Virus record (IMG/VR): IMGVR_UViG_3300008117_000029
Span: 62,001-126,000 of that record
Length of the DNA: 64,000 nucleotides
Origin: a virus
Strand: one strand, 5' to 3'
Shown: positions 35,960 through 54,733 of the stretch, piece by piece
Layout of the letters: every line of letters starts with the position of its first letter
Numbering within the stretch: the stretch's first letter is position 1
Notes under the pieces: model-generated
Told to the model about the DNA's origin: nothing
Database searches by the model: none
Seen by the model: the letters and a program-made list of their open reading frames with translations, nothing else
Made by a program: the position numbers and the translations under genes

Positions 35960-37447
35960 ATGTCCCTTTATAATATTTTTTGTGTCAATACTGCTGAAGG
36001 TTGTAATACAGTAGTTACGCAACAGGTCTCGGTTACGGGATGTGTCACTTACATTGTAAGATTATCTCAGAATTCTAATGCCTTAGGTCCATTCGATATC
36101 TATTATGGGACTTCGACCTACCTTTCAGCCGCAACTCTTTATGCCTCTGCACAGACAAGAACCGAAATGTTCAACGGAGTTGTTATTACATTTGAATGCG
36201 TTACCCCTACACCTACACCTACTCCTACTGTAACACCTACGTTTACACCTACACCAACAAATACAGGAACCCCTAATTCTACACCTACAGAAACACCAAC
36301 AACAACACAGACTCCAACAACTTCAGAGACTCCAACACAAACTCCAACTGAAACTCAGACACAAACACCAACTCCAAGTATAACTGCAAGCCCTGGTCAA
36401 ACACCAACTGCAACAGAATCGCCGACCCCAACACAAACGGAGACACCAACAACAACTCCTACACCGACCCCTTCTACTTCTGAAACTCCTACACCAACAC
36501 AGACGGGAACTCCAACCGAAACCCCATCACAAACACCTACAGAATCACCTACCGCAACACCTGGTGAGACACCAACTCAAACTCCAACTGAAACTAACAC
36601 ACCAACACCATCTGTAACACCAAGCGAGACGCCTACAGAGACTCCAACCCCAACAAATACTGAGACTCCAACACAAACACCTACGCAAACTGAAACTCCA
36701 ACCGCAACACCGACAACAACACCTACAGCTTCAAGAGCATATTGGGAATATTCATTAGGTTATGATTTATCTAGCTCATTAACATCGTGTGGTAATTTTT
36801 ACTCATCACCAACTAACTTCTACAGTGGACCTGGAGATGGACCTGGACCTAACATTGGGGAAACTTTATATACTGATTCGGCTCTTACAACACCAGCACC
36901 TGACGGATACTATTCCAACGGTGTTGCTTGGTATAGAGTTACAGGCGGAGCAGGTCTAATCACAAGTTCGGACCCTAACGGATGTTTGATATCTCCGACT
37001 CCTACTCCAACAGAAACTAACACACCAACTCCAACAGAAACTAACACACCAACTCCAACAGAAACTAATACACCAACCCCTTCGTTTACTCCTTCACCAA
37101 CAGCAACTCCATCCGTATTTGAGATTTTAATTATAACTCAAGATGGTCAAGAATTAATTGCTCAAAATGGTGACCCAATTGGTGCTCAACAAGAAATTAC
37201 ATCATTCTTAGTTTCATCAGGGGAAACAACACAACCAATATGTATAGACCCACAAACGTTGGGTCAAACAATTTACAGTCCATCGAATGATTGGTATAGT
37301 GCAACGAGATTCTTTGCAGACAGTTCATTCAATACGCCTTTCAACGGGAATAATTATTGGTATACCAACAGCACCGACTCTCTCACAGGATATTGGCAAA
37401 TAGATAGTGATGGATTTGTTGTCGGAGGACTATGGCAACCATGTTAA
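35960..37447 (+). CDS. Thr-Pro-rich modular surface protein
   Basis: This is a 495-residue protein. Residues 1-80 form an N-terminal beta module ([20 protein letters not shown]). Residues about 80-255 are a mucin-like linker of Thr, Pro, Ser, Glu and Gln ([20 protein letters not shown] and so on). Residues 256-345 are a compact module with [20 protein letters not shown] and a closing NGC. A second Thr-Pro linker follows with three identical 8-residue units, then a C-terminal Trp/Tyr-rich module ending WQPC. There is no signal peptide. It stands alone between two late-type motifs and is followed by the collagen-like fibre gene. The dense Thr/Ser content makes it a candidate acceptor for the nearby glycosyltransferases, which is an inference. 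Confidence 0.75.
37004..37075 (+). repeat. three 24-bp tandem repeats coding a Thr-Pro linker
   Basis: The 24-base unit beginning ACTCCAACAGAAACTAACAC is present three times head to tail with only one base change in the last copy. Each copy codes eight residues (TPTETNTP in one register). The near-identity at DNA level points to recent slippage expansion, unlike the rest of the linker where codons are mixed. Confidence 0.85.
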
Positions 37448-37485: not shown

Positions 37486-40400
37486 ATGGCAACAACAAGA
37501 ATAACGGATTTACCTATAGTCCTATCGGCAGCCCCAGACGATAGGTTATATATAGTTACAGACTATACTGGAGGCACATCAGGAACTTCGGGGCAAATTA
37601 CGTTTTCAGCCTTGACGGAAAGTATAACAGGAGGAACATCAGGGACTAGTGGAACATCTGGTTCAAGTGGTTCATCAGGAATCGACGGGACTTCTGGCTC
37701 AAGTGGTATCAACGGAACTTCTGGTTCGAGTGGAACATCTGGGGTAGATGGCACTTCAGGAACAAGTGGTTTAGACGGAACATCAGGCTCTTCTGGAACT
37801 AGCGGAATAGACGGAACATCAGGAACTAGTGGAATTGATGGAACTTCAGGAACAAGCGGATTAGACGGAACATCCGGAACTTCTGGTTCGAGTGGAACAT
37901 CTGGAATAGATGGCACTTCAGGAACAAGTGGAGTAGACGGAACGTCTGGTTCAAGTGGCATAGATGGAACCTCAGGAACTAGTGGAATTGATGGAACCTC
38001 AGGAACTAGTGGAATTGATGGGACATCAGGAACAAGTGGATTAGATGGAACATCTGGTTCTTCTGGAACAAGCGGTTTAGACGGAACATCAGGGACTAGT
38101 GGAATTGATGGGACATCAGGAACAAGTGGAATTGATGGGACATCAGGTTCTTCAGGTTCATCTGGTTCTAGTGGAACAGATGGTTCTTCAGGAACTAGTG
38201 GAACATCAGGTTCATCTGGTTCCAGTGGAACAGATGGAACATCAGGAACTAGCGGAATAGACGGAACATCTGGGACTAGCGGAATAGACGGAACATCTGG
38301 GACTAGCGGAATAGACGGAACATCTGGAACTTCAGGAATTAGTGGAACTTCAGGCTCAAGTGGTTCGTCGGGAACAAGTGGAACATCAGGTTCATCAGGA
38401 ACAAGTGGTATCGATGGAACATCAGGTTCATCAGGAACAAGTGGTATCGATGGAACTTCAGGAACTAGTGGTATTGATGGAACTTCAGGAACAAGCGGAT
38501 TAGATGGAACTTCTGGAACAAGTGGTATCGATGGAACATCAGGTTCTTCAGGAACTAGTGGTATTGATGGAACTTCAGGAACTAGTGGTATTGATGGAAC
38601 TTCAGGAACTAGCGGAACATCAGGTTCAAGTGGTTCTTCAGGAACTAGCGGAATGGACGGAACTTCAGGAACTAGTGGAACATCGGGTTCATCTGGTAGC
38701 TCAGGTTCTTCAGGCACAAGTGGAACATCAGGTTCATCTGGTTCTAGTGGAACAGATGGTTCTTCAGGAACTAGTGGAACATCAGGTTCATCTGGTTCCA
38801 GTGGAACAGATGGTTCTTCAGGAACTAGTGGAACATCAGGTTCATCTGGTAGCTCAGGTTCTTCAGGCTCAAGTGGAACAGACGGTAGTTCAGGAACTAG
38901 CGGAATAGACGGCACTTCAGGAACAAGTGGGACATCAGGTTCAAGTGGTTCTTCAGGCACAAGTGGAACATCAGGTTCTTCTGGAACAAGTGGGACAGAC
39001 GGCACTTCGGGAACTAGTGGAACTTCAGGTTCATCTGGCTCAAGTGGGACAGACGGCACTTCGGGAACTAGCGGAACCTCAGGTTCAAGTGGTTCATCAG
39101 GAACTAGTGGAACATCAGGTTCATCTGGTAGCTCAGGTTCTTCAGGCTCAAGTGGAACAGATGGTAGTTCAGGAACAAGTGGAACATCAGGTTCATCTGG
39201 TAGCTCAGGTTCTTCAGGCACAAGTGGAACATCAGGTTCATCTGGTAGCTCAGGTTCTTCAGGCTCAAGTGGAACATCAGGTTCTTCTGGAACTAGTGGA
39301 ATAGACGGAACATCAGGTTCAAGTGGTTCTTCAGGGACTGATGGGACATCAGGCTCGAGTGGTTCTAGTGGATTAAGTGGAGTAAACGGAACATCAGGAA
39401 CAAGTGGCTCATCTGGAACTTCAGGTTCATCAGGAACATCTCCATTCAAAGGAGCTTATGTATCGGGAACAACTTATATGGATGGCGATATGGTTATAGA
39501 TGGTTTATTTTCATACCAATCAACTATAAATAATAATACAAATGAACCATCTTCACTTAGTGGTTGGATTTTATTAAATGGCCTTGATGGTTCATCAGGA
39601 AGTTCGGGAACAAGTGGTTCTTCAGGAATAAGTGGAACTGATGGAACATCAGGAACAAGCGGAACTTCAGGTTCGAGCGGTTCATCTGGTTCATCAGGGA
39701 CAAGTGGAACATCTGGTTCATCAGGAACATCTGGTTCTTCGGGTAGCTCAGGTTCATCAGGAACATCTGGAACAGATGGGACATCTGGAACAAGTGGAAC
39801 ATCAGGTTCTTCGGGAAGTTCAGGTTCATCTGGGACTAGCGGAACATCTGGCTCTTCAGGAACATCGGGTTCAAGCGGAAGTTCAGGCTCGAGTGGGACA
39901 TCTGGAACAAATGGAACATCAGGAACTAGTGGGACTTCAGGTTCAAGTGGTTCATCTGGTTCTTCAGGGACAAGTGGAACTTCAGGTTCTTCAGGTAGTT
40001 CAGGAACAAGTGGAACTTCAGGTTCATCAGGTTCGAGTGGTTCTTCAGGAACATCTGGAACAGATGGAACATCTGGGACGAGTGGAACTTCAGGTTCATC
40101 AGGAAGTTCAGGTTCATCTGGAACTAGCGGAACATCTGGTTCATCAGGAACTAGCGGAACATCGGGTTCATCTGGTTCGAGTGGCTCATCAGGAACATCT
40201 GGAACGAACGGAACATCTGGAACATCAGGAATTAGTGCACAATACAGTGGAACTTCAACAACATCAATTGATTTATCAACACTAACGTTAAGTGCTAATA
40301 CTTCTTTAACAACAAGCACTGGTTTATCATATACAATTGCACAACATCTTATTGTTTCTAATTCATTAGCAAATCACTTCCATGGAGATGTTGTAAGTTA

Positions 40401-43186
40401 TGATTCTTCGACAGGAGCATTGACATTATATGTGTTGGAAATAAACGGAACAGGAACATTCAATAGTTGGACAACCAATTTGGATGGTGCAACAGGTGGA
40501 AACGGTTCATCTGGAACTTCAGGTTCATCTGGAACTTCAGGTTCTTCTGGAACATCAGGTTCTTCCGGAACTTCAGGCTCGAGTGGTTCTTCAGGTTCTT
40601 CCGGAACAAGTGGAACATCTGGCTCTTCAGGGACATCAGGTTCAAGCGGTTCTTCAGGTTCTTCTGGAACAAGTGGAACATCAGGTTCTTCTGGAACAAG
40701 TGGAACATCAGGCTCATCTGGTTCAAGCGGTTCATCAGGGACCTCAGGAACAAACGGAACATCGGGAACAAGTGGAACATCAGGTTCGTCAGGTTCAAGT
40801 GGTTCATCAGGAACAAGCGGAACATCTGGCTCTTCAGGGACATCAGGTTCAAGTGGTAGCTCAGGTTCATCAGGAACCTCTGGAACAAATGGAACTTCTG
40901 GGACATCAGGAACAAGTGGAACTTCAGGTTCTTCGGGTAGCTCAGGTTCATCAGGCACAAGTGGAACATCTGGTTCATCTGGAACATCAGGAACATCTGG
41001 TTCGAGTGGAAGTTCAGGTTCTTCAGGAACATCTGGAACAAATGGAACTTCTGGAACTAGCGGAACTTCAGGTTCTTCAGGTTCAAGTGGTTCATCTGGA
41101 ACTAGCGGAACATCAGGTTCTTCAGGTTCTTCGGGAACGAGCGGAACTTCAGGTTCTTCAGGTTCAAGTGGTTCATCTGGGACTTCTGGAACAAACGGAA
41201 CATCGGGAACAAGCGGAACATCTGGCTCTAGTGGCTCATCTGGTTCATCGGGAACAAGTGGAACTTCAGGTTCTTCAGGGACATCAGGTTCTTCGGGTAG
41301 CTCAGGTTCGAGCGGAACATCTGGCACAAATGGTACATCTGGAACTAGCGGAACATCAGGTTCTTCTGGTAGTTCAGGTTCATCGGGCACAAGTGGAACA
41401 TCAGGCTCCTCTGGTACTAGTGGAACATCTGGTTCAAGCGGTTCAAGTGGTTCATCAGGAACATCTGGAACGAACGGAACATCTGGAACAAGTGGAACAT
41501 CTGGTTCAAGTGGTTCATCTGGCTCTTCTGGAACAAGCGGAACATCAGGTTCATCTGGAACCTCAGGCTCAAGTGGTTCCTCAGGCTCTTCTGGAACAAG
41601 TGGAACAAACGGAACATCTGGAACTAGCGGAACTTCAGGTTCTTCAGGAAGCTCAGGTTCTTCTGGAACGTCTGGAACATCGGGTTCATCGGGAACAAGT
41701 GGAACATCTGGTTCAAGTGGAAGTTCAGGTTCAAGCGGAACATCTGGAACAAACGGAACATCTGGAACTAGCGGAACTTCAGGTTCTTCGGGAAGTTCAG
41801 GTTCGAGTGGAACTAGCGGAACTTCAGGTTCTTCAGGTAGTTCAGGGACAAGCGGAACTTCGGGTTCTTCAGGTAGTTCAGGTTCAAGTGGAACTGACGG
41901 AACATCAGGAACAAGCGGAACATCAGGTTCTTCAGGTTCGAGTGGTTCATCAGGAACAAGTGGAACATCGGGCTCTTCTGGAACAAGCGGAACATCAGGT
42001 TCTTCGGGAAGTTCAGGCTCAAGCGGAACATCTGGAACAAATGGAACATCTGGAACATCAGGTTCATCAGGTTCAAGTGGTTCATCAGGAACAAGTGGAA
42101 CATCAGGTTCATCAGGGACAAGTGGAACATCTGGCTCATCTGGTTCAAGTGGTTCGTCAGGAACTTCTGGAACTAATGGAACATCTGGAACAAGCGGAAC
42201 ATCAGGTTCATCTGGAAGTTCAGGTTCATCTTGGCTCATCTGGAACAAGTGGAACATCTGGCTCATCTGGTTCAAGTGGTTCGTCAGGAACTTCTGGAAC
42301 AAATGGAACATCTGGAACATCAGGTTCATCTGGAAGTTCAGGTTCATCTGGAACTAGCGGAACATCAGGTTCTTCTGGAACAAGTGGAACGTCAGGTTCG
42401 AGCGGAACATCAGGTTCATCTGGAACAAGTGGAACATCAGGCTCATCAGGTTCTTCGGGAACTAGTGGAACATCAGGTTCTTCGGGAACTAGCGGAACAT
42501 CAGGTTCTTCGGGAACTAGTGGAACATCAGGTTCTTCGGGAACTAGCGGAACATCAGGTTCTTCGGGAACTAGTGGAACATCAGGTTCCTCGGGAACTAG
42601 TGGAACATCAGGTTCTTCGGGAACTAGCGGAACATCAGGTTCTTCGGGAACTAGTGGAACATCAGGTTCCTCTGGCACAAGTGGAACATCAGGTTCTTCT
42701 GGACTCGGGACAATCAACAACAACGTTAATGACTATGTCCTTACTGCGACAGGAACCGCAGGAACAATCAATGGTGAACAAAACCTTCAGTTTGATGGTT
42801 CAACACTCAAAGTGACTGGTGACACTAATATAACAGGAGCATTAACAGCGGCTTCTAAATCATTCGATATTCCTCACCCTACAAAAGAAGGTTGGAGATT
42901 AAGATATGGTGTGTTGGAGGGTCCTGAACATGGTGTTTATTTCAGAGGTAGAGTTCAAGGAAACGTAATAGAATTACCTCATTATTGGATAGGATTAGTA
43001 AAAGAGGAATCGATTTCGGTATCATTAACACCAATTGGTGTTTCTAATACACACTTTGTTGTCAAAATTGAAGATAATAAAGTCTTCATAGACTCTCAAA
43101 GTTCTCATATCGACGCGTTCTTTATGATAAATGCTGAGAGAAAAGACGTAGAAAAAGTATTACTCGAGTATCGTCCAATAGTATAA
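37486..43186 (+). CDS. collagen-like Gly-X-Y tail fibre, frameshifted near the 3' end
   Basis: If one extra T near 42231 is discounted, this is a 1899-residue fibre. Residues 1-45 are an attachment head (RITDLPIVLSAAPDDRLYIV). Three long Gly-X-Y tracts follow (about 46-652, 700-912, 1005-1740) using almost only GTS, GSS, GID, GLD, GTD and GTN triplets, with no proline. Two globular modules interrupt them: a CBM5/12-like domain (YVSGTTYMDGDMVIDGLFSY, about 652-700) and a beta domain ending FNSWTTNLDG (about 913-1005). The C-terminal tip (FDIPHPTKEGWRLRY, LEGPEHGVYFRGR) is a domain conserved in marine phage fibres. As written, translation leaves frame at 42231 and stops at 42357, losing the tip; the in-frame tip continues to 43186. 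It is probably the receptor-binding fibre. Long open frames on the opposite strand are by-products of the repeat. Confidence 0.8.
37630..39440 (+). repeat. first collagen-like coding repeat tract
   Basis: A 9-base periodic tract codes Gly-Thr-Ser and Gly-Ser-Ser triplets with regular Gly-(Ile/Leu/Val/Thr)-Asp insertions. Many units are identical at DNA level (GGAACTAGTGGA, GGTTCTTCAGGA types), so recombination and length change are likely. This tract is richer in GID/GLD triplets than the later two. Confidence 0.9.
39590..40225 (+). repeat. second collagen-like coding repeat tract
   Basis: The same Gly-X-Y coding repeat continues after the CBM-like module, now mainly GTS and GSS with single GTD or GTN triplets about every 16 triplets. 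Confidence 0.9.
40500..42705 (+). repeat. third collagen-like coding repeat tract
   Basis: This is the longest late tract, with a higher-order period built from GTS/GSS blocks closed by GTNGTSGTS. Its last 300 bases are an almost perfect repeat of GGAACTAG(T/C)GGAACATCAGG-type units. It contains the one-base frameshift near 42231. Confidence 0.9.
42229..42234 (+). other. single-base frameshift in the collagen-like fibre gene
   Basis: The expected TCATCTGGC pattern reads TCATCTTGGC, one extra T. Upstream the Gly-X-Y frame is that of the ATG at 37486; downstream it continues in the +1 frame to the conserved tip and stop at 43186. No classic slippery heptamer is present. Confidence 0.85.
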
Positions 43187-43204
43187 GGAATAAAAAAATA
43201 CAAA

Positions 43205-43236
43205 AACGCACTCAATAAAATGGGTGCGTTTTTTTT
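43205..43236. terminator. bidirectional rho-independent terminator between convergent genes
   Basis: A stem AACGCACTC/GGGTGCGTT (one G-T pair) has an A run on its left and a T run on its right, so it can end both the fibre message (+) and the glycosylation operon (-). The stop codon of the minus-strand gene lies within the T run. Confidence 0.88.
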
Positions 43237-43909
43237 ATTTACTATTGTCAATATAAATCATTACTTCGTTATAATAAGGGATAAAATTATCATTCCATAT
43301 TTGCCAAGTTATATCAATTCCATCAAAAGAAATTACTTTAAAGTTAGGAAAAACCCTCAAATACACATCTCTAAAAATTCTGAATTTTTCTTTCATCCAA
43401 GGCTGGCCAAGGTGCCACTCACCAACAATTTTTCTGACATTATTTTTTATCCAAAACAAATTTTCAATTGTGAATATATCATATTCGCCTGATTCACAAT
43501 CAGTTTTAAGAAAGTCAATTTTTTTAATATTATAATCCTCAATTACCTTTGAGAATGTTGTTGAATATAGTTTATAACCACCAGTCAAATCAAAAACATC
43601 AGTGAAATTAAATTCACCTATTGAACTCGAAATACCTTTATTTATTGCGGTTACATTTCCGTGTCTTGTATTTAATAACAAAGTTTTGAATTCTTCAAAA
43701 CTAGGCTCAAAAGCAAATACGTGAGAAGGATTCTTTGATAATATTGAATATGTGAAAGGACCTAAACTAGCCCCAATATCGAAAACAATATCGCCCTCTT
43801 CAACCTCAAAAAATCTTTCGTAAATCCTGTCAACAAATATTTCTTGTTCCACAGTTTCTCTAAAACCATCGTAACATTTAGGTTCCCATATAAAATTTTC
43901 TATACTCAT
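43235..43909 (-). CDS. FkbM-family methyltransferase
   Basis: The protein has 224 residues from the ATG at 43909, chosen because it overlaps the stop of the upstream gene as ATGA, like the other junction in this operon; an in-frame ATG at 43966 would add 19 residues. The SAM-binding motif I is VFDIGASLGPFTYS (about 42-54), followed by VFAFEPS (64-70) as motif II and later IDFLKTDCESGEYDIF, the FkbM-type catalytic-side segment. FkbM enzymes O-methylate sugars or polyketides. It is the last gene of the minus-strand glycosylation operon, so the likely substrate is a sugar hydroxyl on a glycan or a nucleotide sugar. A second FkbM-type domain sits at the start of the adjacent long protein. Confidence 0.85.
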   Translation of the reverse strand: MSIENFIWEPKCYDGFRETVEQEIFVDRIYERFFEVEEGDIVFDIGASLGPFTYSILSKNPSHVFAFEPSFEEFKTLLLNTRHGNVTAINKGISSSIGEFNFTDVFDLTGGYKLYSTTFSKVIEDYNIKKIDFLKTDCESGEYDIFTIENLFWIKNNVRKIVGEWHLGQPWMKEKFRIFRDVYLRVFPNFKVISFDGIDITWQIWNDNFIPYYNEVMIYIDNSK

Positions 43910-46900
43910 TTCAATAAATTTTGAATTTGATTTATTACCATACTTGGTGTTATTGAAGTGTGACACTCAAATTGTCTTGGTGTTCCTTTGTGAATTGGAC
44001 ACCAATCCCAATCACCTTTATCGAACTTGAAGTTGGGGTTATTCCAACATCCATTACAGACTGATTTGTTTATAATTCGGGTGCAGTTTGTGGTAAATTC
44101 GTGGTCGGGTTCAGTAAAATTACTAATCATCACAACGTGTTTACCCATTGCCCAAGACAACCAAGAAAGTCCACTTGATAAACCTATGAAAAATTCACTA
44201 TGATGTATTACATTCATGGTATTACCAATTGAACTATCTGAAATTTGTGTAACATTTCTGAACTCATTTTTTTCTTTTGATACGTTTATTACTTTGAAAC
44301 CTAAATCTACTAAGTAATCAATTAGTTCTTGCCAATATTCTTTTTTCCAAAATTTTAAACCTGAGGTGGAATTGGTTGCGATACTTATATATTTTTCATC
44401 AAAAGGTCTTCGATAAACGTTAAAATTAATTCGTGGTTTTATTTCTTCAAATTCCAAACCTAAGATGTTTGTTGCTGCTTTTTGGAGAGGAATTGTATTC
44501 GGGATTACTGGTTCCATATTTTCATTATAAAACCAACCAATGGAGTATTGTGCATGAATGTCTTTTACAACATTCCCTGGTTCTATGAATTCTATCTCAG
44601 GGTAAACTTCTTTGAATAACTTATTCCAAAATGTGGAAAGAATAATTTTACAATTATGTTTCTTTTGAAACTCCAAAACATAAGGCACCCAAGCAATGTT
44701 GTCACCTAAAGATTTACTATCAAAATTTATAAACACTCTTTTGTCTTTCAAATCTAATTTCGAGTCATATATTAGTGTTTCTTCTTCGTAAACCTTAGTT
44801 CTCCAATTTGTAAAATATTGTCTGTTAAGTTTTACCCAACAGTTGGAATCTATTTTATTTTCATAATGAATTACCCCTTTATCATCAATGAATTGAACCA
44901 AAAACTTAGAACTTGAATCCCCTTTAATTTCTAAAAAAGGTTGTCTTATAAAATATTGAGTAATTTGTATATTATTCTTTGATGATTTTTGAATCTTTAT
45001 ATCCATAGTTTTTAACTTCTCATAAAACTTTTTATGAGATAAAGCAAAGTTCTGAGATTGGTCATGACTAACTTCATAGTCTCTTGAGATTCCATTGTAT
45101 TTTAACTCACGAATTATGTTTGACGTTTTCTCACAATCATCATCAATTGGTGTGATGTATGGTGTAAACATATCATAATATTGTGTAAGATTTCTAGAAA
45201 GAATTTTTAAACCATAAGAAGCGGCTTCCCTAAGAACAAGGGGATTACATTCAATTGTGGAGTTAAATAAAAATATGTCTGATGCTTTCATAAACAAATC
45301 CACATCACTCCTTTCACCCCAAATTTTTACATTTGATGGTAAATTCATCATCAGAGGTTTCCAATAACTTTCGAAATTTGATGCTTGATTTCCTATGAAA
45401 TGAAACTCTATATCTTCACCTTGTAGATATCTTGCGATTTCGATGCCCTCTCCTTGATTTTTTCCTTGAGTCCAAAGTCCAACGTTTATCACATGGGTTT
45501 TATTAAGGTCTAAACCAAGTTTTAACCTTGCGTGTTCTTTTTGTTCTTCGGTAACAAATTTTCGGTCAATAGGGTATTCAAAAAATTCATAATAAGAATT
45601 TTCATTTTTGAATTGAACCTTCGGATGATGGGGAGAACAGAAGGCGTAAGCGTCGGGATGAAAATGTCTATTCTCAGGATTAAAATGAATATTATGACAG
45701 GTCTCGACAATTTTCCAAGTTCTGTTGTTATCAAAAAGTGCATTTAAGACATTTATTGATACTCGATTGAAACTATCAAACCCCTCAAGTATTTCGTCAA
45801 CATGAACAATATCAATTGAATTATCTTTTATAATTTGAATTAACTTCAGAGAATTTTCATCATTATGATTTCCCAAAGTGTTTAATGTCCAATATCTGTT
45901 ATCGGGTATAATTTGTTTTATTTTTTCTTTTTGAACCACATACCAAGTTGAGTAAAGACAATACTCAACAACATATAATTCTACCTCAGGGTAATATTCT
46001 TGTAGGGTTTCGATTCTTTTCAATAAGTAAGCTGGCATACCACCAGTTGAAAGGTGAGGTGCTAAGTATAAAATTCTAAGTTTTTCCTTGTTATATTTTT
46101 TGATTTCATCTACCATCTCTCTCATCATGTTTGGATTTTTTTCACCATGAAAAAACAGGAGATGATTTTTTTCTTCAGGAACTCTTAACCATTCACCGAT
46201 GTGGTTTCTGATACCCTTTCCTTTATATTCTACTTGGGTATACATTTTCTCAACCGTTTCTAATCTCCCATTGACATAGACATAGGGAAGACCCTTATCT
46301 ATATTGTATTTCCATAATAGAACGTTACAAATAGTCTCCTCATTATACGGAGCATAATGACTAACATTTTTCAGGACTTTTGGGTGTGAGCACATCCAAT
46401 ACCATTCCTCCAAAAACTCGATGGTATTTTGACCTGAAACGAAATATCCTGTTTGTCTATAGTTTTTTCTGACCGATTGGTCAACACCAAACAAGACACA
46501 GGTATCGTGTTCCAAAGTTGTTTCCATTCCACCTCCGAATCCTCCTCCTCCACCTCTACCATCGTATTTCAAAAAATCGTATATCCCTTCAACAAAATAT
46601 GGGTGAGATGAATTTTCATCATAATATGAAAATATAGTATCAACGTTAGGGGTTGCGATTGAATCGCTGTCAACATAACAAACAATATTTGAATATTTTT
46701 CTAAAGCATCTTTGATAATCAGAGGTCTTTGAGATAAAATTTTATAAATTATTGGATTTTTTCTATCTATGTAAAAGTTGTCCCTTTCCTTAATATACAT
46801 GTTATTTGAAGTAGGTTCGATATCTATAGACCAATTTAAAGTCTTGGTATTTTCTACTTCAACAGTTCTGTTTGAATTTATTAAATAAACCAATATTGGT

Positions 46901-47595
46901 AGTTTACTAAATTGTCTTATTGATTTTGCACATTCAGTTACAATATCAAAGTAATTTTCGGTTGAATATAAGACATAAGATTTGTCAAATTCAGACTCTG
47001 TTTTGATGTTCAATATAACGTCTTCCTCCAAATAAGTTACATTATAATTTGATAATTGATTTATAATTTTATCTAATTCAATTTTATTTGATGTTTCATT
47101 GTATTCGAATTCAATTTTAGATGCGAAAAGATTATGATTCAGTCTACATTGTTCGAGATACCCTTTTAAAATTATATGTTCATGACCTTCAGTGTCAATT
47201 TTTAAATAATCAATTGAACCTATATTGTATTTTTCTATTAAAGTTTTCCAAGATATAGTTGGGACTTTATCAATTTTTACCAACTTGTTATATGTTTCAT
47301 CACCAATTTTTTTCTTTGTAAATTCATGAGGACCATTAACAGAGTTACATCCTCTAATCCAATAGGGAAGATTGTATTTTTCTAAATCTTTAGATTCTAT
47401 ATGATATATTTCAATAGTATCGTCTGTATCAGAAAGAGCCGCATTGACTTTTTGAACTTTGGGTTTATTAGGTAATCTATCGAGATATTCTGAAATGGGT
47501 TCGATACTGAGTCCGACAGTTTGGTCATCAGCAGATTGAATTAGAGTCATGAAGTCTGATGTTCCGACCTCTATAAAGTTGTATCTTATACTCAT
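43906..47595 (-). CDS. four-domain glycosylation enzyme: FkbM methyltransferase, GT-A, GT-B and autotransporter-type O-heptosyltransferase
   Basis: This is a 1229-residue protein. Domain 1 (1-200) is FkbM-like: IDYLKIDTEGHEHIIL at 128-143 and FIEVGTSDF at the N-terminus. Domain 2 (about 205-500) looks GT-A-like, with the DxD motif Asp309-Ser-Asp311 in VCYVDSDS and a Gly-rich loop at 346-356. Domain 3 (about 505-865) is GT-B/GT4-like: LAPHLSTGGMPAYLLKR, VGLWTQGKNQG and the nucleotide-sugar segment STIECNPLVLREAASYG. Domain 4 (about 870-1229) matches bacterial autotransporter heptosyltransferases (Aah/TibC): SLGDNIAWVPYVLEFQKKH, TNSTSGLKFWKKEYW, IGLSSGLSWLSWAMGKHVV, and four cysteines (1180, 1183, 1199, 1211) where TibC binds iron. 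Aah/TibC attach heptose to Ser of autotransporter adhesins. It overlaps both neighbours by ATGA. Self-glycosylation of virion fibres is inferred. Confidence 0.85.
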   Translation of the reverse strand: MSIRYNFIEVGTSDFMTLIQSADDQTVGLSIEPISEYLDRLPNKPKVQKVNAALSDTDDTIEIYHIESKDLEKYNLPYWIRGCNSVNGPHEFTKKKIGDETYNKLVKIDKVPTISWKTLIEKYNIGSIDYLKIDTEGHEHIILKGYLEQCRLNHNLFASKIEFEYNETSNKIELDKIINQLSNYNVTYLEEDVILNIKTESEFDKSYVLYSTENYFDIVTECAKSIRQFSKLPILVYLINSNRTVEVENTKTLNWSIDIEPTSNNMYIKERDNFYIDRKNPIIYKILSQRPLIIKDALEKYSNIVCYVDSDSIATPNVDTIFSYYDENSSHPYFVEGIYDFLKYDGRGGGGGFGGGMETTLEHDTCVLFGVDQSVRKNYRQTGYFVSGQNTIEFLEEWYWMCSHPKVLKNVSHYAPYNEETICNVLLWKYNIDKGLPYVYVNGRLETVEKMYTQVEYKGKGIRNHIGEWLRVPEEKNHLLFFHGEKNPNMMREMVDEIKKYNKEKLRILYLAPHLSTGGMPAYLLKRIETLQEYYPEVELYVVEYCLYSTWYVVQKEKIKQIIPDNRYWTLNTLGNHNDENSLKLIQIIKDNSIDIVHVDEILEGFDSFNRVSINVLNALFDNNRTWKIVETCHNIHFNPENRHFHPDAYAFCSPHHPKVQFKNENSYYEFFEYPIDRKFVTEEQKEHARLKLGLDLNKTHVINVGLWTQGKNQGEGIEIARYLQGEDIEFHFIGNQASNFESYWKPLMMNLPSNVKIWGERSDVDLFMKASDIFLFNSTIECNPLVLREAASYGLKILSRNLTQYYDMFTPYITPIDDDCEKTSNIIRELKYNGISRDYEVSHDQSQNFALSHKKFYEKLKTMDIKIQKSSKNNIQITQYFIRQPFLEIKGDSSSKFLVQFIDDKGVIHYENKIDSNCWVKLNRQYFTNWRTKVYEEETLIYDSKLDLKDKRVFINFDSKSLGDNIAWVPYVLEFQKKHNCKIILSTFWNKLFKEVYPEIEFIEPGNVVKDIHAQYSIGWFYNENMEPVIPNTIPLQKAATNILGLEFEEIKPRINFNVYRRPFDEKYISIATNSTSGLKFWKKEYWQELIDYLVDLGFKVINVSKEKNEFRNVTQISDSSIGNTMNVIHHSEFFIGLSSGLSWLSWAMGKHVVMISNFTEPDHEFTTNCTRIINKSVCNGCWNNPNFKFDKGDWDWCPIHKGTPRQFECHTSITPSMVINQIQNLLK

Positions 47596-48530
47596 AATAG
47601 GGTTAATATTTTATTGAAAATTTGTAGAACGCTAGGATGACAAACAAATTCGGATTTTCCTTCTAAACATCCAACTAAAGGTGGGATTCCTCTTATTGAA
47701 CCCCATTCTTTGACACCATATCTCATGTCAGATGCACATGCTATCTTACAATCCCCATCAATATAATGAAATTTATATTCTTGAGAACCGTTTCGAAAAG
47801 GGGCTCTTAACTTCCAATGAACAGAACTACCTAATTGAATGATGTTTGCATCTGTGGTTCCTGCTAAGTGTAACATACCTGAGTCCATGGTGACCGTGCA
47901 AATACTTTTTTGCATTAACCACCAAGTTTGGGGGACATTTGCTTTATTCATTAAATTCAAACCAAGTTTGATAGGGAAATCGAAAACAGGTTTGTCTACC
48001 ATGTGAAAACCTACCTCACTCGATGCCTTCCCCATCGAAACAACAGGAATACCGTAATCGTTTAACATTCGTGTTAATAACTGCCATTTCTCTGCGGGCC
48101 AAGTTCTCGAAGCCCAAGAGGTTACGGGATGTATCAAAACAAACTTTTCAGGTAAACCATCAATTGGCTCCCACTCATCAGGAACGTAATCCATATCACA
48201 TTCCTCGGGTAATAATTGGAAACCCAACCCCGCCGCATGGAATTGTCTTATGTCCATAACATTATGACGTAATCCTAAACCGTATCGGTTTTCTAAATTT
48301 GGTGCAAAACTTACGAGTAATTCGTATTGAGATTCTAAATCATCTCTATTTGTGTTCTTGGTATCAAAGATTTTATCAACATATTTGTTATGTTTGAATA
48401 TTAGTGGATGGTCAGTTAATACTGATATTTTTTTTCCATAAGCAAAATATAGTTTCCTTAAAGAAGGTGTTGCACAAATAGTGTCACCTAATCCATGACT
48501 CAGATGTAAGTCTAATAGAGGTTCTTTCAT
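47592..48530 (-). CDS. GT9-family heptosyltransferase-like glycosyltransferase
   Basis: This is a 312-residue GT-B enzyme. The N-terminal SHGLGDTICATPSLRKLY (11-28) is the GT9 opening also seen in LPS heptosyltransferases; IHPVTSWASRTWPAEKWQLL (133-152) is the donor-domain start, and TMDSGMLHLAGTTDANIIQL (214-233) the donor-binding loop. A C-terminal set of four cysteines (261, 265, 288, 297) recalls the iron-binding cysteines of autotransporter heptosyltransferases, so it may be a degenerate or minimal relative. The start codon is followed downstream by an ATGA overlap with the four-domain gene, so the two are translationally coupled. A heptose or related ADP-sugar donor is inferred from family. 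Confidence 0.82.
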   Translation of the reverse strand: MKEPLLDLHLSHGLGDTICATPSLRKLYFAYGKKISVLTDHPLIFKHNKYVDKIFDTKNTNRDDLESQYELLVSFAPNLENRYGLGLRHNVMDIRQFHAAGLGFQLLPEECDMDYVPDEWEPIDGLPEKFVLIHPVTSWASRTWPAEKWQLLTRMLNDYGIPVVSMGKASSEVGFHMVDKPVFDFPIKLGLNLMNKANVPQTWWLMQKSICTVTMDSGMLHLAGTTDANIIQLGSSVHWKLRAPFRNGSQEYKFHYIDGDCKIACASDMRYGVKEWGSIRGIPPLVGCLEGKSEFVCHPSVLQIFNKILTLL

Positions 48531-48874: not shown

Positions 48875-51800
48875 ATGTCTAACATATTTGTTTATAATCA
48901 GTCACCACCCACAATTACTATAAGTCAAATTGACTTTAACGGTGTTACAGCAACTTGTGATGTGGGATGTCCTTGTACGCCAAGTTCGAGTACTTGTGCA
49001 TTCACCACTACACAAGTTGGTGAGTACACTCTTACTGTATATTGGAGTAATGGGTTGTTGAATGGTTGTATCGAGGTTACAGATAGTACTGGTAGAAAAC
49101 AAAATTTTGATGCGGGTGCTGGCGGCTCGGCAACTCAATCTTTTCCCAACGTAATTTACGACGGGATTACTGAAATAGGAATATCAATATACGACAATTT
49201 TTGTGGTCCATTAGGTGCAAACACCTTTTTGGTTTCATACTCAGTCATAAGTGGTCCGTCTGCTTGTTCTGATTTTGCATCTACAGGTGGTACAGGTTAT
49301 TACACCTCATCAGTAGAAGGACTTTGGAGTGGTAGTACTTTATATTCTGACTCAGGTCTTACAACATTTGCGCCTGACGGATATTATTCTAACGGAATCT
49401 ATTCTTGGGAAATAAGTGGAAGTAATGGGATTCTAAACAATCAAGAACTTTGTTCAGTAGGGCCTGTAGTTTCTTCAACTCCAACAGAAACTCCGACCGA
49501 AACTCCTACCCCTACACCAACTCCAACTGTAACAGAAACGCCAACAGAAACTCCAACCCCTACTCCAACGGACCCAGACCCTCCAGCTCCAGCAATCTCG
49601 CAAACACAAACACAAACACCTACCCCAACACCACAGACAGGTTGTGTTCAATATTCATTATATTTAGGTTTTTCAGGGCCTATTTCAGAACCTTATTCTT
49701 ACACTGATTGTGATTCTGTACCCCAAAACGCCACAATAACCAACGGTAATACTGATGTTTTTTGTGCACTGGCTGGAACCGTTATAAGCGGTCCATCTGC
49801 AATTTTGACCGTTGTTGGTCCTTGTTTTGTAAGCCCATCACAAACACCGACACCAACTCTTACTGAGACGCCAACTACAACACCTACCCCAACACCTACC
49901 CTAACACCACCTGGTGATTGCGAATGTTGGGAAATCACTAACAATGATATTGTAGATATTTCAATCAGATACTACGCGTGTAATGGAAATGAGGAATGTG
50001 TTCAAGTTGATGTGACATCAAGTAGATATATTTGTATATCGGGTGGAACACAAGGATTAAAACTTGTTTCATCGGGAACTACCTGTGCAGGAGGACCTGA
50101 GCCTTTATATACTTGGACATCTTTGGGAGGAACTTGTGTGGTTGATGGAGATTGTGGTGTAGTCCCTTCTCCTACGCCAACTCAAACACAAACTCCAACC
50201 CCTTCAACTCCTTGTAATTGTACATATTTTGATGTTACAATTGCACAACCTGACTTGGATGATGCCACGGGTAATACACCTTCGTCACTAAACAACACTA
50301 TATTCGTAGACTATTACAATTGTTATAATATACTGACCACGGCAAGTTTTGCTGACGCAGGAACTTTCGACGATTCATTTTGTGCAAATTACGTTCAGTC
50401 GACTTATTATTATAAAAACAATGTCGCTTACTTTCCAGTATCGTCTTATGCTACGGATACATTTGTAGATTGTTGTGGTACTCCAACACCTACACCGACA
50501 ACAACTGAAACTCCAACTGAAACTCCAACCGAAACGCCTACACCAACAACAACCGCAACTATAGGTTCGTCACCTACAGCAACAGAAACACCTACACAAA
50601 CACCATCTGAAACCCCTACTCAAACACCTTCTGAAACCCCAACTCAGACTCCTACAATAACCGAAACTCCCACACAAACACCAACTGAGACTATTACTCA
50701 AACGCCTTCAGAAACTCCTACACAAACACCATCCGAAACCCCAACTCAGACCCCTACATCAACTATTGGTTCATCCCCTACAGCAACTGAGACTCCTACA
50801 CAAACACCTTCAGAAACTCCAACTCAGACGCCTTCACAGACTCTATCACCAACCCCTGATGTAACACCAACCCAAACTCAAACCGAAACTCCGACACAGA
50901 CACCTTCTGTAACTCCAGACCCAACTCAAACGCCATCTAATACCCCAACTAACACTCAAACACCGACACAAAACCTAATAGGGTTCCGTGATTGTGTTTC
51001 AGGGACTTTATTCAGATTTGAGGATTTACCAGTTGCAGTTGTGGTTGACGATGTCTATCTTATCACAGGTTCTACAGAATATGAAGGATGTGCGACAGTT
51101 GTTGATTCGGGAAGTGGTCCAATATATGATGGAACATCGGTTACATTTACAAATGTAACAGGTTGCGGTTCTACACTTTGTCCAAGAGTTGCGAGTGTTG
51201 CTGCATTATTGATTGACTGTTCCACTGAAGAAATATTTTATGCCAATGTTGATGAAGATACCGCTTATCAAGGAGCGGTTTATGAATATAACAATAGATG
51301 TTATAGATTCGAAGAGTTTTCAGGTCCTGGTGGACCTGATTTGGGTGCACCTGATTGGGGTAGTTGTAGAGCTTGTCTATTGAACACACCAACGCCAACC
51401 CCGTATTCAACACCAACAAACACTCCGACAGTATCTTCGACACCAGCGGCTTGTGATTCGGGTGAATTTTGCTTTACTACAACCCTACCTTCTTTGTTGA
51501 ATTACAATGGACTTTACGTTTCAGGTGCAACTTATAATGGTAGAATCTCCTATTCTGGTGGAAGCGTCAGCTTGGGTTACATTTATTATTTTACATCAGT
51601 TACTGAGAGTTATTGGTGTCTGAGCACCTCTCTCGGTGGGACTTGTTTATTGAAGGGCTCGTCTCCATGTTACTCTGCGTGTCCTGATATATCTTTCGGT
51701 TCTTTTGAACCAGGAGTTTGTCCAACTCCAACTCCAACGCCAATAAATTGTGACACCTTCGATTTCAATGCATACTTTGACTGTGATTGGGAACCAGTCC

Positions 51801-53176
51801 CAACACCAAGTCCGTCAGTTCCTTGTGACGATGTGAATTTCATTTTCACTTCCATAGGTGTAACGCCAACTCCATCACCAACAGGATTGATATGTCTTGG
51901 GAAAAGTGTCGACTTTGAGATTAATTATGTTCCTGATTCAACCCCAACCCCTTCAAACACACCAACGATAACACTGACAAGAACAGTTCCTGCGGATGGA
52001 CAAGTTACCTTCAATATATTTGAAGAAACATTCAGTTGTGTTTCGGTTAAGGTATTGAATCAATGTGGAACTGAAAATTATTTCTACACTTCTGACCCAC
52101 TTGTGTTTGAGGAAATTCCAATCCAAACTGAGATGGTATTCTCGGCGGTTATTAATGAAACAATTCTTTGCTTGAAGTATTTGAGGGATGATTCAAACTT
52201 ATCATCTAACACGAACGTAGACTCGATAATTGATATTTTTGGAAACGATTGTTCGAAATGTTCAACAGTCCCTTCACCATCACCTTCAACGACGATAACA
52301 TCAACACCTACATCAACACCAACGATGACAATTACGCCGACACAAACTTCGTCCTCGACTCCTACATTCACGCCAACTCCAACACAGACAACAACTCCTG
52401 GTCTTACACCAACAGCAACACCAAGGCCAAGTTATTCATCAACGCCAACCCAAACTCAGACTCCATCACAAACACCGTCTTATAGTCCTACTTCAACGAT
52501 GACCCCAACGCCAAGTGAAACCCCTTGTTTGGTATATGTTTATTCAAGTTGTATTCCAATTAGTCCAAATACAGTCAGAACATATATGATTCAAACACAA
52601 CAATCACCAATACAGACTACAGTTGGAAGACAATTTAAAGATGCTGATGGAAATTGTTGGACCTATGAGGGTGAATTTGATTGTAATTATTTTGCACCTA
52701 TCAAAATTGCAACCTCACAAAGATTCGATGGAGATTACTTTGCTTCAGCACCTGATAAAACCTATTTGAGTTGTGATACGTGTTTGAGTAGTGTTGATGA
52801 AGTTGAGGTTTATTTGAATGTAAGTTTGGAAAATAATGGAGACGGAACTTATAATATGAACTTCGTCTTATCTAGCACACCTGATGAAATTAACCTAACC
52901 ACCCTTCCGTTTGATATTGGTAATGAATTCGGACAATACATTCGTTACGGTGCACAATGTGGGTTTGTTGATGTCAGTGGAACTTGGTATCTCCTTTCAG
53001 GTAACTCACAAACAACAAAAGTTGTTGAATGTAACAAGTATGGCGGTTTCGTGTTGAATTCAGTTCAACTTACAAATCCACCATTCAATTACAAACCTCT
53101 TGTAGGATGTTACACAATTGTTTTCCCATCAGTGACAGGAACTTTGTATAAAATTTTTATAAAACGAACAACATAA
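48875..53176 (+). CDS. long Thr-Pro-rich modular surface protein
   Basis: This 1433-residue protein is built of compact Cys-bearing modules joined by mucin-like Thr-Pro-Glu-Gln linkers. The N-terminal module (1-115) has a CPCTPSSSTC cluster. Residues about 145-195 repeat the module of the gene at 35960 ([20 protein letters not shown]). Linkers lie near 198-250, 325-345, 428-445 and, longest, 532-705, where [20 protein letters not shown] occurs twice. Later modules (705-830, 850-920, 960-1130) are each rich in Cys, Tyr and Asn; another linker near 1130-1215 leads to a C-terminal domain of about 220 residues. No signal peptide or membrane segment is present. It is probably an extended virion surface fibre, with Thr-rich linkers as possible O-glycan sites. 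Confidence 0.75.
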   Translation: MSNIFVYNQSPPTITISQIDFNGVTATCDVGCPCTPSSSTCAFTTTQVGEYTLTVYWSNGLLNGCIEVTDSTGRKQNFDAGAGGSATQSFPNVIYDGITEIGISIYDNFCGPLGANTFLVSYSVISGPSACSDFASTGGTGYYTSSVEGLWSGSTLYSDSGLTTFAPDGYYSNGIYSWEISGSNGILNNQELCSVGPVVSSTPTETPTETPTPTPTPTVTETPTETPTPTPTDPDPPAPAISQTQTQTPTPTPQTGCVQYSLYLGFSGPISEPYSYTDCDSVPQNATITNGNTDVFCALAGTVISGPSAILTVVGPCFVSPSQTPTPTLTETPTTTPTPTPTLTPPGDCECWEITNNDIVDISIRYYACNGNEECVQVDVTSSRYICISGGTQGLKLVSSGTTCAGGPEPLYTWTSLGGTCVVDGDCGVVPSPTPTQTQTPTPSTPCNCTYFDVTIAQPDLDDATGNTPSSLNNTIFVDYYNCYNILTTASFADAGTFDDSFCANYVQSTYYYKNNVAYFPVSSYATDTFVDCCGTPTPTPTTTETPTETPTETPTPTTTATIGSSPTATETPTQTPSETPTQTPSETPTQTPTITETPTQTPTETITQTPSETPTQTPSETPTQTPTSTIGSSPTATETPTQTPSETPTQTPSQTLSPTPDVTPTQTQTETPTQTPSVTPDPTQTPSNTPTNTQTPTQNLIGFRDCVSGTLFRFEDLPVAVVVDDVYLITGSTEYEGCATVVDSGSGPIYDGTSVTFTNVTGCGSTLCPRVASVAALLIDCSTEEIFYANVDEDTAYQGAVYEYNNRCYRFEEFSGPGGPDLGAPDWGSCRACLLNTPTPTPYSTPTNTPTVSSTPAACDSGEFCFTTTLPSLLNYNGLYVSGATYNGRISYSGGSVSLGYIYYFTSVTESYWCLSTSLGGTCLLKGSSPCYSACPDISFGSFEPGVCPTPTPTPINCDTFDFNAYFDCDWEPVPTPSPSVPCDDVNFIFTSIGVTPTPSPTGLICLGKSVDFEINYVPDSTPTPSNTPTITLTRTVPADGQVTFNIFEETFSCVSVKVLNQCGTENYFYTSDPLVFEEIPIQTEMVFSAVINETILCLKYLRDDSNLSSNTNVDSIIDIFGNDCSKCSTVPSPSPSTTITSTPTSTPTMTITPTQTSSSTPTFTPTPTQTTTPGLTPTATPRPSYSSTPTQTQTPSQTPSYSPTSTMTPTPSETPCLVYVYSSCIPISPNTVRTYMIQTQQSPIQTTVGRQFKDADGNCWTYEGEFDCNYFAPIKIATSQRFDGDYFASAPDKTYLSCDTCLSSVDEVEVYLNVSLENNGDGTYNMNFVLSSTPDEINLTTLPFDIGNEFGQYIRYGAQCGFVDVSGTWYLLSGNSQTTKVVECNKYGGFVLNSVQLTNPPFNYKPLVGCYTIVFPSVTGTLYKIFIKRTT
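50470..50990 (+). repeat. Thr-Pro linker coding tract with internal duplication
   Basis: This low-complexity tract codes TPTxTP units. A block coding [20 protein letters not shown] occurs near 50567 and again near 50770 with many synonymous changes, an older internal duplication. Confidence 0.75.
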
Positions 53177-53177
53177 G

Positions 53178-53396
53178 ATGGCAGTTCAAGTTACAATAAA
53201 TGGTATAACAGGACAATCACCATTTGACATTTATATCTGTCAACCAAACGGTAGTGGTTGCTTTTATATTAATACTATAACAACTCTTCCATATGATTTT
53301 GATATACCACAACCATATGATACTGGACTGGCTTACATGTTGAAAGTAATTGATTCGCAGAATTGCATAATCTCAGGAGTAACTTATGTAGCATGA
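53178..53396 (+). CDS. stand-alone DIYY-type module protein
   Basis: This is a 72-residue protein consisting of one module: a strand (VQVTINGITGQSPFDIYICQ), a central Cys pair, a PYDFDIPQPYD turn, and a closing strand with VIDSQNCIISG. The next gene begins with a clearly similar module (TANTPVDIYYCNSGGGDCQF, FPFSFYVPSPY, IEDTQGCID). It starts two bases after the long upstream gene and overlaps the next by ATGA. Duplication of the module, one copy gaining Thr-Pro linkers, explains the pair. The role is probably virion decoration; no further function can be read. Confidence 0.7.
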   Translation: MAVQVTINGITGQSPFDIYICQPNGSGCFYINTITTLPYDFDIPQPYDTGLAYMLKVIDSQNCIISGVTYVA

Positions 53397-54733
53397 GTCA
53401 ATTTGTAACTATCCAATCTGTAACTGCAAATACACCAGTTGACATATATTATTGTAACTCGGGTGGTGGCGACTGTCAATTTGTTGCGTCGGTTGCAACA
53501 TTTCCATTCTCATTCTATGTCCCATCACCATATAGTGAATCAACAATTGTTATTAAAATTGAAGATACCCAAGGTTGTATTGATGAGATTCCTATAGATA
53601 TAACTCCCACACCAACACCAAATGTCACTAAAACCCCAACCATGACACCAACCCCGTCGTATTCACCTACCTTGTCACCAACCCAAACGCCATCCATGAC
53701 ACCAACAAATTCACCCACTACCTCGAATACAGCAACTATATCATCAACACCAACCGCAACACCTCTTGTTGTTTTTCACCCGACAGCTGATAGTTGTTCA
53801 TCACCACTCAATCTAACAGGTTATTATACATACATTTCAGAGGCAAATTTAGTCCCTGTTGTAGGTGCCACAATTTACCAAACACTTCTAAACGGGGTAT
53901 TATATAACCCTTTGAATGGGGGTGGGAACACATATATCATTTCTTTCGGAGGAACATTATATCAAGTGGTAATTGATTCCCAAGGTAAAATAGTATCTTT
54001 TTCACTTTGTGTTCCATCGACACCAACACAAACTCAAACTCCATCCCAAACCCAAACTCCTACCCAATCTGAAACACCTCCTCAAACTCCTACCCAAACA
54101 GAAACCCCTTCACAAACGCCAACGGTTACACCTTCATTTGTTGAGTTTCTTTTATCATATGGGGCAACTATATGTGGGTCAGAAATAAATTGGACATCAA
54201 AAACAAAAGAAGAAGTGAAATGTGATTTTATAGAAGCTTTCGACCCATTAGTTGAGGTAGATGGAAACGCAGGGTATTATTACAATTCTTCAACTACTTT
54301 AGGACCTGGCAGTCAATTATATTATAATCTTTTTGGAATATTTTTTGTAAACACAACTCTTACAGGAAAATATGTATACGGACCATCTACGTATCCAGCA
54401 AATCCTGATATATCGTCACCACCACTTTATGTTATGGAAATCTTAAATGGTGTTGTAGTGGCAATAACTAATTTCGATGATATAAGCTCTTGTGGAACTT
54501 ATGTTTGTCCATGTTTGTGTTATTACTTTGAAAATCAAGATGTTGTGGGTTCAACAATACAATATACTTTATGTGATGGTTCAGTAGTTGGTGAACCACT
54601 TTCTGCAGGTTCAAAAGTCGAAAGGTGCATCCGAGCTGGGTCGGGTGATTTTTCAGGTGGGGTTACATCAATTCAACCTTGTAGTAGTGTAACTATTTGC
54701 ACTGATAGCGTAGATTGTGGTGGATGTTCATAA
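53393..54733 (+). CDS. Thr-Pro-rich modular surface protein
   Basis: The protein has 446 residues from the ATG at 53393, which overlaps the upstream stop as ATGA; an in-frame ATG 30 bases earlier lies inside the previous gene and is less likely. Residues 1-70 are a DIYY-type module, then a Thr-Pro linker (71-125), a module with LNGVLYNPLNGGGNTYIISF (125-208), a second linker (209-245) and a 200-residue C-terminal domain with a CPCLCYYF cluster and a CGGCS end. The linker-module style is the same as in its neighbours, which suggests a set of related fibres or decorations made by module shuffling. Confidence 0.72.
   Translation: MSQFVTIQSVTANTPVDIYYCNSGGGDCQFVASVATFPFSFYVPSPYSESTIVIKIEDTQGCIDEIPIDITPTPTPNVTKTPTMTPTPSYSPTLSPTQTPSMTPTNSPTTSNTATISSTPTATPLVVFHPTADSCSSPLNLTGYYTYISEANLVPVVGATIYQTLLNGVLYNPLNGGGNTYIISFGGTLYQVVIDSQGKIVSFSLCVPSTPTQTQTPSQTQTPTQSETPPQTPTQTETPSQTPTVTPSFVEFLLSYGATICGSEINWTSKTKEEVKCDFIEAFDPLVEVDGNAGYYYNSSTTLGPGSQLYYNLFGIFFVNTTLTGKYVYGPSTYPANPDISSPPLYVMEILNGVVVAITNFDDISSCGTYVCPCLCYYFENQDVVGSTIQYTLCDGSVVGEPLSAGSKVERCIRAGSGDFSGGVTSIQPCSSVTICTDSVDCGGCS

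Follow-up and report, generated by a model that had tools for sequence, protein, structure and literature searches.

A thumb-less TibC-like glycosyltransferase family, fused in phages to variable glycan-building modules, appears to O-glycosylate Gly-Ser/Thr tracts

The IMG/VR virus record IMGVR_UViG_3300008117_000029 (137,794 bases), from a large freshwater phage, encodes, in the 64,000-nucleotide stretch analyzed here (its positions 62,001 to 126,000, hereafter the window), a multi-domain enzyme of 1229 amino acids (43906..47595, minus strand). In this protein an FkbM methyltransferase domain and two glycosyltransferase (GT) domains of the GT-A and GT-B folds precede a C-terminal domain resembling the bacterial TibC/Aah glycosyltransferases. 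The gene lies in a minus-strand glycosylation group that converges on the plus-strand gene of a collagen-like fibre of ~1,900 amino acids (37486..43186), the proposed acceptor. We consider it likely that this is a phage protein O-glycosylation enzyme, whose TibC-like domain starts a glycan on the tracts of the fibre while the other modules lengthen and methyl-cap it. The basis is homology, retention of catalytic and iron-binding residues, loss of the TibC thumb and of Arg286, and tight genomic linkage of enzyme and tract in phages and, separately, in bacteria. The domain appears, from sequence comparison, to belong to a sister family of TibC that has no thumb, acts as an O-glycosylation enzyme of Gly-Ser/Thr tracts and is fused in phages to variable glycan-building modules.

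Results

The C-terminal domain is TibC-like but lacks the thumb

The enzyme gene is confirmed as a real gene, with an ATG start and no internal stop codon, and the full-length protein is matched at 100% in eight loci on other IMG/VR contigs of up to 321 kb. Its C-terminal domain (residues ~877-1229; 43909..44967, minus strand) shares with TibC/Aah (BAHT, TIGR04414; PDB 4RAP, 4RB4) the beta-barrel, catalytic GT-B and iron-finger fold. TIGR04414 scored 293.6 bits on residues 897-1226, with a cut-off of 200 and 26 bits for the next heptosyltransferase profile, and a HMMER search against PDB sequences matched TibC at E 1e-52. AlphaFold models were built from alignments of locus relatives for residues 1-505 and 500-1229, with mean predicted local distance difference test (pLDDT) values of 86.9 and 89.7, respectively. 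The best PDB match of the second model was TibC (4RAP/4RB4; E ~1e-29, template modelling (TM) score 0.82 on the TibC length, 31% identity). An earlier note, written by a model that saw the letters of this DNA and a list of its open reading frames, had proposed an Aah/TibC-like C-terminus and an overlay of a predicted structure on TibC; profile and model both bear the proposal out. The outcome that would have refuted it, a domain no closer to heptosyltransferase profiles than to unrelated GT-B enzymes, did not occur, since TIGR04414 scores well above other GT-B profiles.

In TibC, Asp110 is the catalytic base, Thr226 and Lys230 contact the beta-phosphate and Trp305 contacts the sugar (PMC4358343). 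All four are kept in the window enzyme, as Asp965, Thr1077, Lys1081 and Trp1145 (in SSGLSW); the SLGDNIAW motif, already highlighted in the earlier note, is the one that aligns Asp965 with Asp110. Pro300 of TibC, corresponding to Ser294 of AAH, sets heptose stereoselectivity, and AAH accepts both ADP-heptose epimers (PMC4358343); the window enzyme is AAH-like at this position, with Ser1140. The iron ligands of TibC are Cys339, Cys342, Cys358 and Cys370 (PMC4358343). Cysteines 1180, 1183, 1199 and 1211 of the window enzyme (43963..44058, minus strand), which had been put forward as their counterparts, show an identical spacing of 3/16/12, and an iron finger is predicted from these conserved residues.

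Unlike TibC and Aah, the window enzyme lacks the beta-hairpin thumb, carries Thr1126 in place of Arg286 and is fused to methyltransferase, GT-A and GT-B domains. The thumb of TibC, with its Phe265-Val266, is required for the active dodecamer (PMC4358343). At the corresponding site (44218..44277, minus strand) the HMMER alignment to TibC leaves 20 residues compared to 30, and the model of residues 500-1229 forms no long hairpin there. Arg286 contacts adenine, and its Ala mutant loses activity (PMC4358343). We extended the residue and thumb counts to 172 clusters, 99 of which are viral. The catalytic Asp, Lys and Trp are present in 99/99 viral clusters, the Thr226 equivalent in 97/99 and the four cysteines in 98/99, whereas Arg286 is kept in 7/99 and replaced by Thr in 78/99; the thumb stretch is at most 21 residues long in 86/99.

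As thumb and Arg286 are absent, neither the ring, nor an autotransporter acceptor, nor a heptose donor should be assumed. A dodecamer ring is improbable because the thumb is lost, and the window enzyme probably does without the assembly that grips beta-helical autotransporters. No autotransporter Pfam match was obtained among the subset of window proteins scanned, and the neighbour is the collagen-like tract gene, where TibC/Aah have an AIDA-type autotransporter. With none seen nearby and no thumb, an autotransporter was rejected as acceptor.

Regarding the donor, the catalytic residues favour a TibC-like reaction, and the loss of Arg286 suggests that it need not be ADP-heptose. An enzyme that acts on the same tracts as an ADP-heptose-dependent O-heptosyltransferase like Aah/TibC, drawing on ADP-heptose of the host, is possible, if rather doubtful. 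Such an enzyme would fit the TIGR04414 score above cut-off, the retained equivalents of Asp110, Thr226, Lys230 and Trp305, the AAH-like Ser at position 300 and the adjacent GT9-like gene described below. It is, however, difficult to reconcile with the prevalence of Thr at the position of Arg286 and with the gene content of 16 viral records, in which we found no GmhA-type gene (PF13580) and only sub-cut-off matches to TIGR02199 (rfaE-II), in two records. With nothing above cut-off for either profile, a phage-encoded ADP-heptose pathway was rejected. Of the earlier designation "autotransporter-type O-heptosyltransferase", the TibC-like homology stands; the rest is weak, in view of thumb loss, Thr1126, the fibre context and the failure to find an autotransporter nearby or a phage ADP-heptose pathway.

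The fibre carries proline-free Ser/Thr-rich tracts

The fibre gene matches PF01391 and contains Gly-X-Y (GXY) tracts at 37633-39441, 39580-40236, 40486-42231 and 42233-42709 (plus strand). The 518 triplets counted hold 944 Ser and Thr and no Pro; Thr or Ser occupies X in 93% of them, and Ser occupies Y in 89%. Enzyme-linked tracts elsewhere, in phages as well as in bacteria, are similar in composition. In the Pro/Gln phage collagens, for which that pattern was the selection criterion, Pro fills 53% of X positions and Ser+Thr amount to 0.29 per triplet.

A frameshift lies in the window fibre gene near 42231 (42223-42243, plus strand). In two further copies of the fibre gene, L004 and L005, the frame is open throughout (2058 and 1899 amino acids), with repeat numbers varying between copies. 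Since the break is missing from both, a programmed frameshift or phase variation was rejected, and the break probably arose when the repeat was sequenced or assembled.

TibC-like enzymes and tracts are linked in phages

At least 582 viral stretches encode a TibC-like domain, as found by a search with the C-terminal alignment. This search provided 80 viral loci for analysis, and a search with the whole enzyme provided 74. Among the loci listed that extend over at least 12 kb, Ser/Thr-rich GXY tracts occur in 42/59 and 35/51, respectively. The nearest tract lies 0.2-8.9 kb from the TibC gene and is downstream and convergent, as in the window, in 44/63 viral clusters. A scan of 30 whole records for (G[TS]S)3 gave matches in 23, and the reversed pattern gave none.

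Tracts are absent from all 80 DnaB-helicase loci taken from related phages as a control (26 of them at least 12 kb long), and from all 13 loci (128 kb) that encode a close relative of the GT-A domain without a TibC domain. In the reverse test, restricted to viral loci of at least 12 kb, a TibC domain was present in 7/34 Ser/Thr-tract loci and 0/35 Pro/Gln collagen loci. Compared with the frequencies of tracts at TibC loci, this means that the enzyme predicts the tract far better than the tract predicts the enzyme. Ser/Thr-rich collagen-like fibres are encoded by at least 120 viral stretches; in the majority of the Ser/Thr-tract loci L312-L391, the fetched stretch holds no TibC domain.

The linkage recurs in bacteria according to thumb length

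The 78 best bacterial homologues fall into two classes by thumb length. Full-thumb enzymes (29-30 residues, mostly with Arg286) have a tract in 0/59 clusters, whereas short-thumb enzymes (21 or 26 residues) have an adjacent tract gene in 12/14 (Fisher p 5e-12, with relatedness ignored). All six large neighbours of full-thumb enzymes that were tested are AIDA stalk and/or autotransporter proteins. In four short-thumb genomes (3.7-5.5 Mb), all listed genome-wide matches to (G[TS]x)5 map to the enzyme locus. Eight of ten full-thumb genomes have no match, and in the other two the matches that could be placed lie away from the enzyme locus. On a tree built without the thumb columns, the short-thumb bacterial enzymes do not stay together: one group is next to the full-thumb enzymes, and a second, separate one lies among viral sequences. 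In previously unused genomes, 3/3 short-thumb loci adjoin a tract gene (two by the strict rule and one, interrupted, by a looser rule on inspection), and 0/4 full-thumb loci have a tract. Chance adjacency was rejected on the basis of these held-out genomes together with the helicase, GT-A-only and Pro/Gln collagen controls.

Most of the bacterial tract genes encode small proteins that resemble lipoproteins or have a signal peptide, and that carry (GTS)n or (GSS)n. In Methylobacter, Methylomicrobium and other Gammaproteobacteria, such lipoproteins or secreted proteins accompany short-thumb TibC homologues (L154-L170 and L570-L573).

The TibC-like domain is constant and the other modules are shuffled

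N-terminal to the TibC-like part, the four-domain architecture proposed in the earlier note was recovered in full. The FkbM-type methyltransferase domain (residues 21-183; 47047..47535, minus strand) scored 50.2 bits with PF05050 (gathering cut-off 22.7), and fell narrowly below the cut-off of the narrower TIGR01444 (35.9 versus 37.7). The GT-A domain (residues ~203-500; 46096..46989, minus strand) was recognized from its model, whose best Foldseek matches in the PDB are retaining GT-A enzymes of GT6/GT8/GT24 type, among them the GT6 blood-group enzymes GTA/GTB, BoGT6a, UGGT and glycogenin (E ~1e-6); with the low TM, the model is taken to indicate the fold class alone. Its previously noticed DSD motif (residues 309-311; 46663-46671, minus strand) is present, and neither D309 nor D311 varies across 32 aligned sequences. 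The GT-B domain (residues ~505-845; 45061..46083, minus strand) is of GT4 type, with PF00534 (GT-B group 1) matching residues 687-810 at 34.2 bits and the model matching BshA/PimB-type GT4 enzymes (Foldseek against the PDB). For the enzyme, PHROGs profiles returned no useful family beyond a methyltransferase.

The TibC-like domain stays constant across relatives, and the rest is shuffled. The order methyltransferase, GT-A, GT-B and TibC found in the window occurs in 11/77 new loci, a few of which are the same phage, GT-A, GT-B and TibC with or without another N-terminal extension in 36/77, and GT-B, GT-A and TibC with or without a methyltransferase in 5/77. Split genes that keep the same module order also occur. 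In one 1921-residue chain (L133, 5288-11050) the TibC domain is joined to a pyruvyl transferase and several methyltransferase and GT domains, and in L068 (8942-12685) to a PIG-L-type deacetylase; fusions to a DXD-sugar transferase and to DUF6165 were found as well. Tandem TibC-type genes are seen in L045 (8771-12000) and L061 (8771-11952), the second being ~300 amino acids long, without the N-terminal barrel part and with a longer thumb stretch. In the 321-kb relative of the window, TIGR04414 matches weakly a second time, at a site distant from the fibre locus (G001:C1:146710-147249; 35.6 bits, 217-residue frame, N-terminal half only).

When the phage collection was searched for isolates with the exact order of the window, a TibC domain was found only in the isolated Microcystis phage Mel-JY01 and in three huge-phage records. 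The Mel-JY01 protein WWT39291.1 (1226 amino acids) combines GT4, further modules and a TibC-type domain, and is annotated only as "methyltransferase FkbM". Upstream of it lies an unannotated G-[TS]-S tract open reading frame of at least 999 residues (L076, PP395634.1, 2-2998, plus strand), across which the called coding sequences are mostly antisense. As in the window, a TibC-type multi-module protein thus stands beside a G-[TS]-S tract; the module order is different and the thumb stretch is intermediate (26).

Genes surrounding enzyme and fibre

The enzyme gene is the middle one of a three-gene minus-strand group, and the remaining large window genes are on the plus strand. Upstream, and overlapping it by 4 nt, is a GT9-like (heptosyltransferase-like) gene of 312 amino acids (47592..48530, minus strand; PF01075, 46.1 bits). 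Downstream, with a 61-nt overlap, is a second FkbM methyltransferase of 243 amino acids (43235..43966, minus strand; TIGR01444, 50.4 bits, above cut-off), which is retained beside the enzyme in many relatives. A terminator-like hairpin (43202..43233; 1 found versus 0.1 expected in shuffles) separates this operon from the fibre gene. Neither the two flanking genes nor the convergent fibre gene had featured in the earlier note. The surroundings of the fibre region also encode three large proteins that match one unknown family, phrog_15511 (35960-37447, 48875-53176 and 53363-54733), and a protein with SprB repeats (54765-57614).

Discussion

We propose that the iron-finger TibC-like domain would initiate glycosylation of the convergent fibre, attaching the first sugar to Ser/Thr within its Gly-(Thr/Ser)-Ser tracts. 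The fused GT-A and GT-B domains, the adjacent GT9-like enzyme and the two FkbM methyltransferases might then lengthen and methyl-cap the glycan. Without a ring, the enzyme could work along an extended or triple-helical repeat, and the glycan may stabilise the proline-free fibre and/or change the surface properties of the virion. The fibre is the likely acceptor, whereas this order of action and a role of this kind for the glycan are putative. The constant TibC-like domain with its variable partners fits a constant first step followed by variable extension, and the fusion and shuffling of modules make it plausible that a single chain starts, extends and methyl-caps an O-glycan, in an order that we infer. 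Glycosylated Thr has been reported as a collagen-stabilising mechanism (Bann et al. 2000, as cited in PMC3368898), which would suit a fibre devoid of proline.

Several observations weigh against this proposal. About a third of the viral TibC loci have no tract in the fetched flank, and the tract-less L029, L030, L045, L145 and L072 have at least 8 kb on both sides. Conversely, 27/34 long Ser/Thr-tract loci lack a TibC domain in the fetched stretch, so that a tract can exist without the enzyme. No tract was found at the bacterial short-thumb locus L163, and the tract proteins of bacteria, which are short and either lipoproteins or secreted, are not proven collagens. Finally, the viral genes are near relatives, and their counts are not independent.

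GT9 and FkbM enzymes also act in lipopolysaccharide or polysaccharide synthesis. The cassette could remodel the lipopolysaccharide or capsule of the host for superinfection exclusion, its proximity to the fibre merely marking a host-recognition island, and phage glycosyltransferases clustered with tail fibres have been interpreted in this way (PMC7029224). We regard this as unlikely, as the characterised TibC family modifies protein Ser, and loci with the same GT-A but without TibC have no tracts. Moreover, short-thumb TibC and tract are paired in bacterial chromosomes without a tail-fibre island, which weakens an explanation by a hyper-variable island. Glycosylation of another virion protein, such as that of the capsid or tail tube or a large structural protein encoded nearby, has a precedent in mycobacteriophage capsids and tail tubes (Freeman et al. 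2023, as cited in PMC12619734) and candidates in several large structural-type genes nearby, but is very improbable, since among the neighbours of short-thumb enzymes nothing but the G-[ST]-S tract was seen to recur in both phages and bacteria.

The proposed O-glycosylation of the fibre has partial parallels, none of them described as TibC-family. In Clostridioides difficile, SgtA and BclA3 are associated with an O-linked sugar on Thr of a Gly-X-Y repeat (PMC7157674), and, as in the window with its Ser/Thr-rich repeat gene, the glycosyltransferase gene lies beside that of a collagen-like surface protein. SgtA differs in using UDP-N-acetylglucosamine, in its N-terminal GT domain and in not being described as TibC-like, and BclA3 in its GPT-type acceptor with proline and its location in the spore exosporium instead of a virion. 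The mimivirus collagen lysyl hydroxylase/glucosyltransferase (Luther et al. 2011, as cited in PMC8968730) is likewise a viral enzyme reported to glycosylate the virus's own collagen, but it targets hydroxylysine, in a giant virus of amoebae. In mycobacteriophages, glycans are reported on the C-termini of capsid and tail-tube proteins; the account in PMC12619734 mentions no TibC-family enzyme, and no collagen-like fibre is involved. Our literature search, mostly outside subscription papers, returned no paper linking TibC-type enzymes to phages or Gly-Ser/Thr tracts, and a search on collagen-like proteins and phage glycosylation returned nothing describing the pairing of enzyme and tract. The earlier statement that no described phage protein of this make-up is known needs qualification given the many viral stretches with the C-terminal domain, the loci with the same module order and the comparable Mel-JY01 protein.

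More broadly, and as not quite an even bet, we suggest a widespread thumb-less iron-finger family of phages and bacteria that is devoted to Gly-Ser/Thr tracts and whose donor may no longer be ADP-heptose. In phages it would anchor single-chain assembly lines with swapped methyl, pyruvyl, deacetylase and GT modules, coating and perhaps stabilising proline-free fibres. Both the Ser/Thr-rich collagen-like fibres and the viral TibC-like enzymes look common in aquatic phages, from at least 120 and at least 582 stretches, respectively. If the proposal is true, many environmental phages would have glycosylated fibres, with possible effects on adsorption, stability and recognition, and glycosylation would be a plausible means of stabilising the proline-free tracts. 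Loss of the thumb would then indicate that an iron-containing family of glycosyltransferases has switched acceptors, and a testable function could be assigned to the G-[ST]-S lipoproteins found in methylotrophs and other Gammaproteobacteria.
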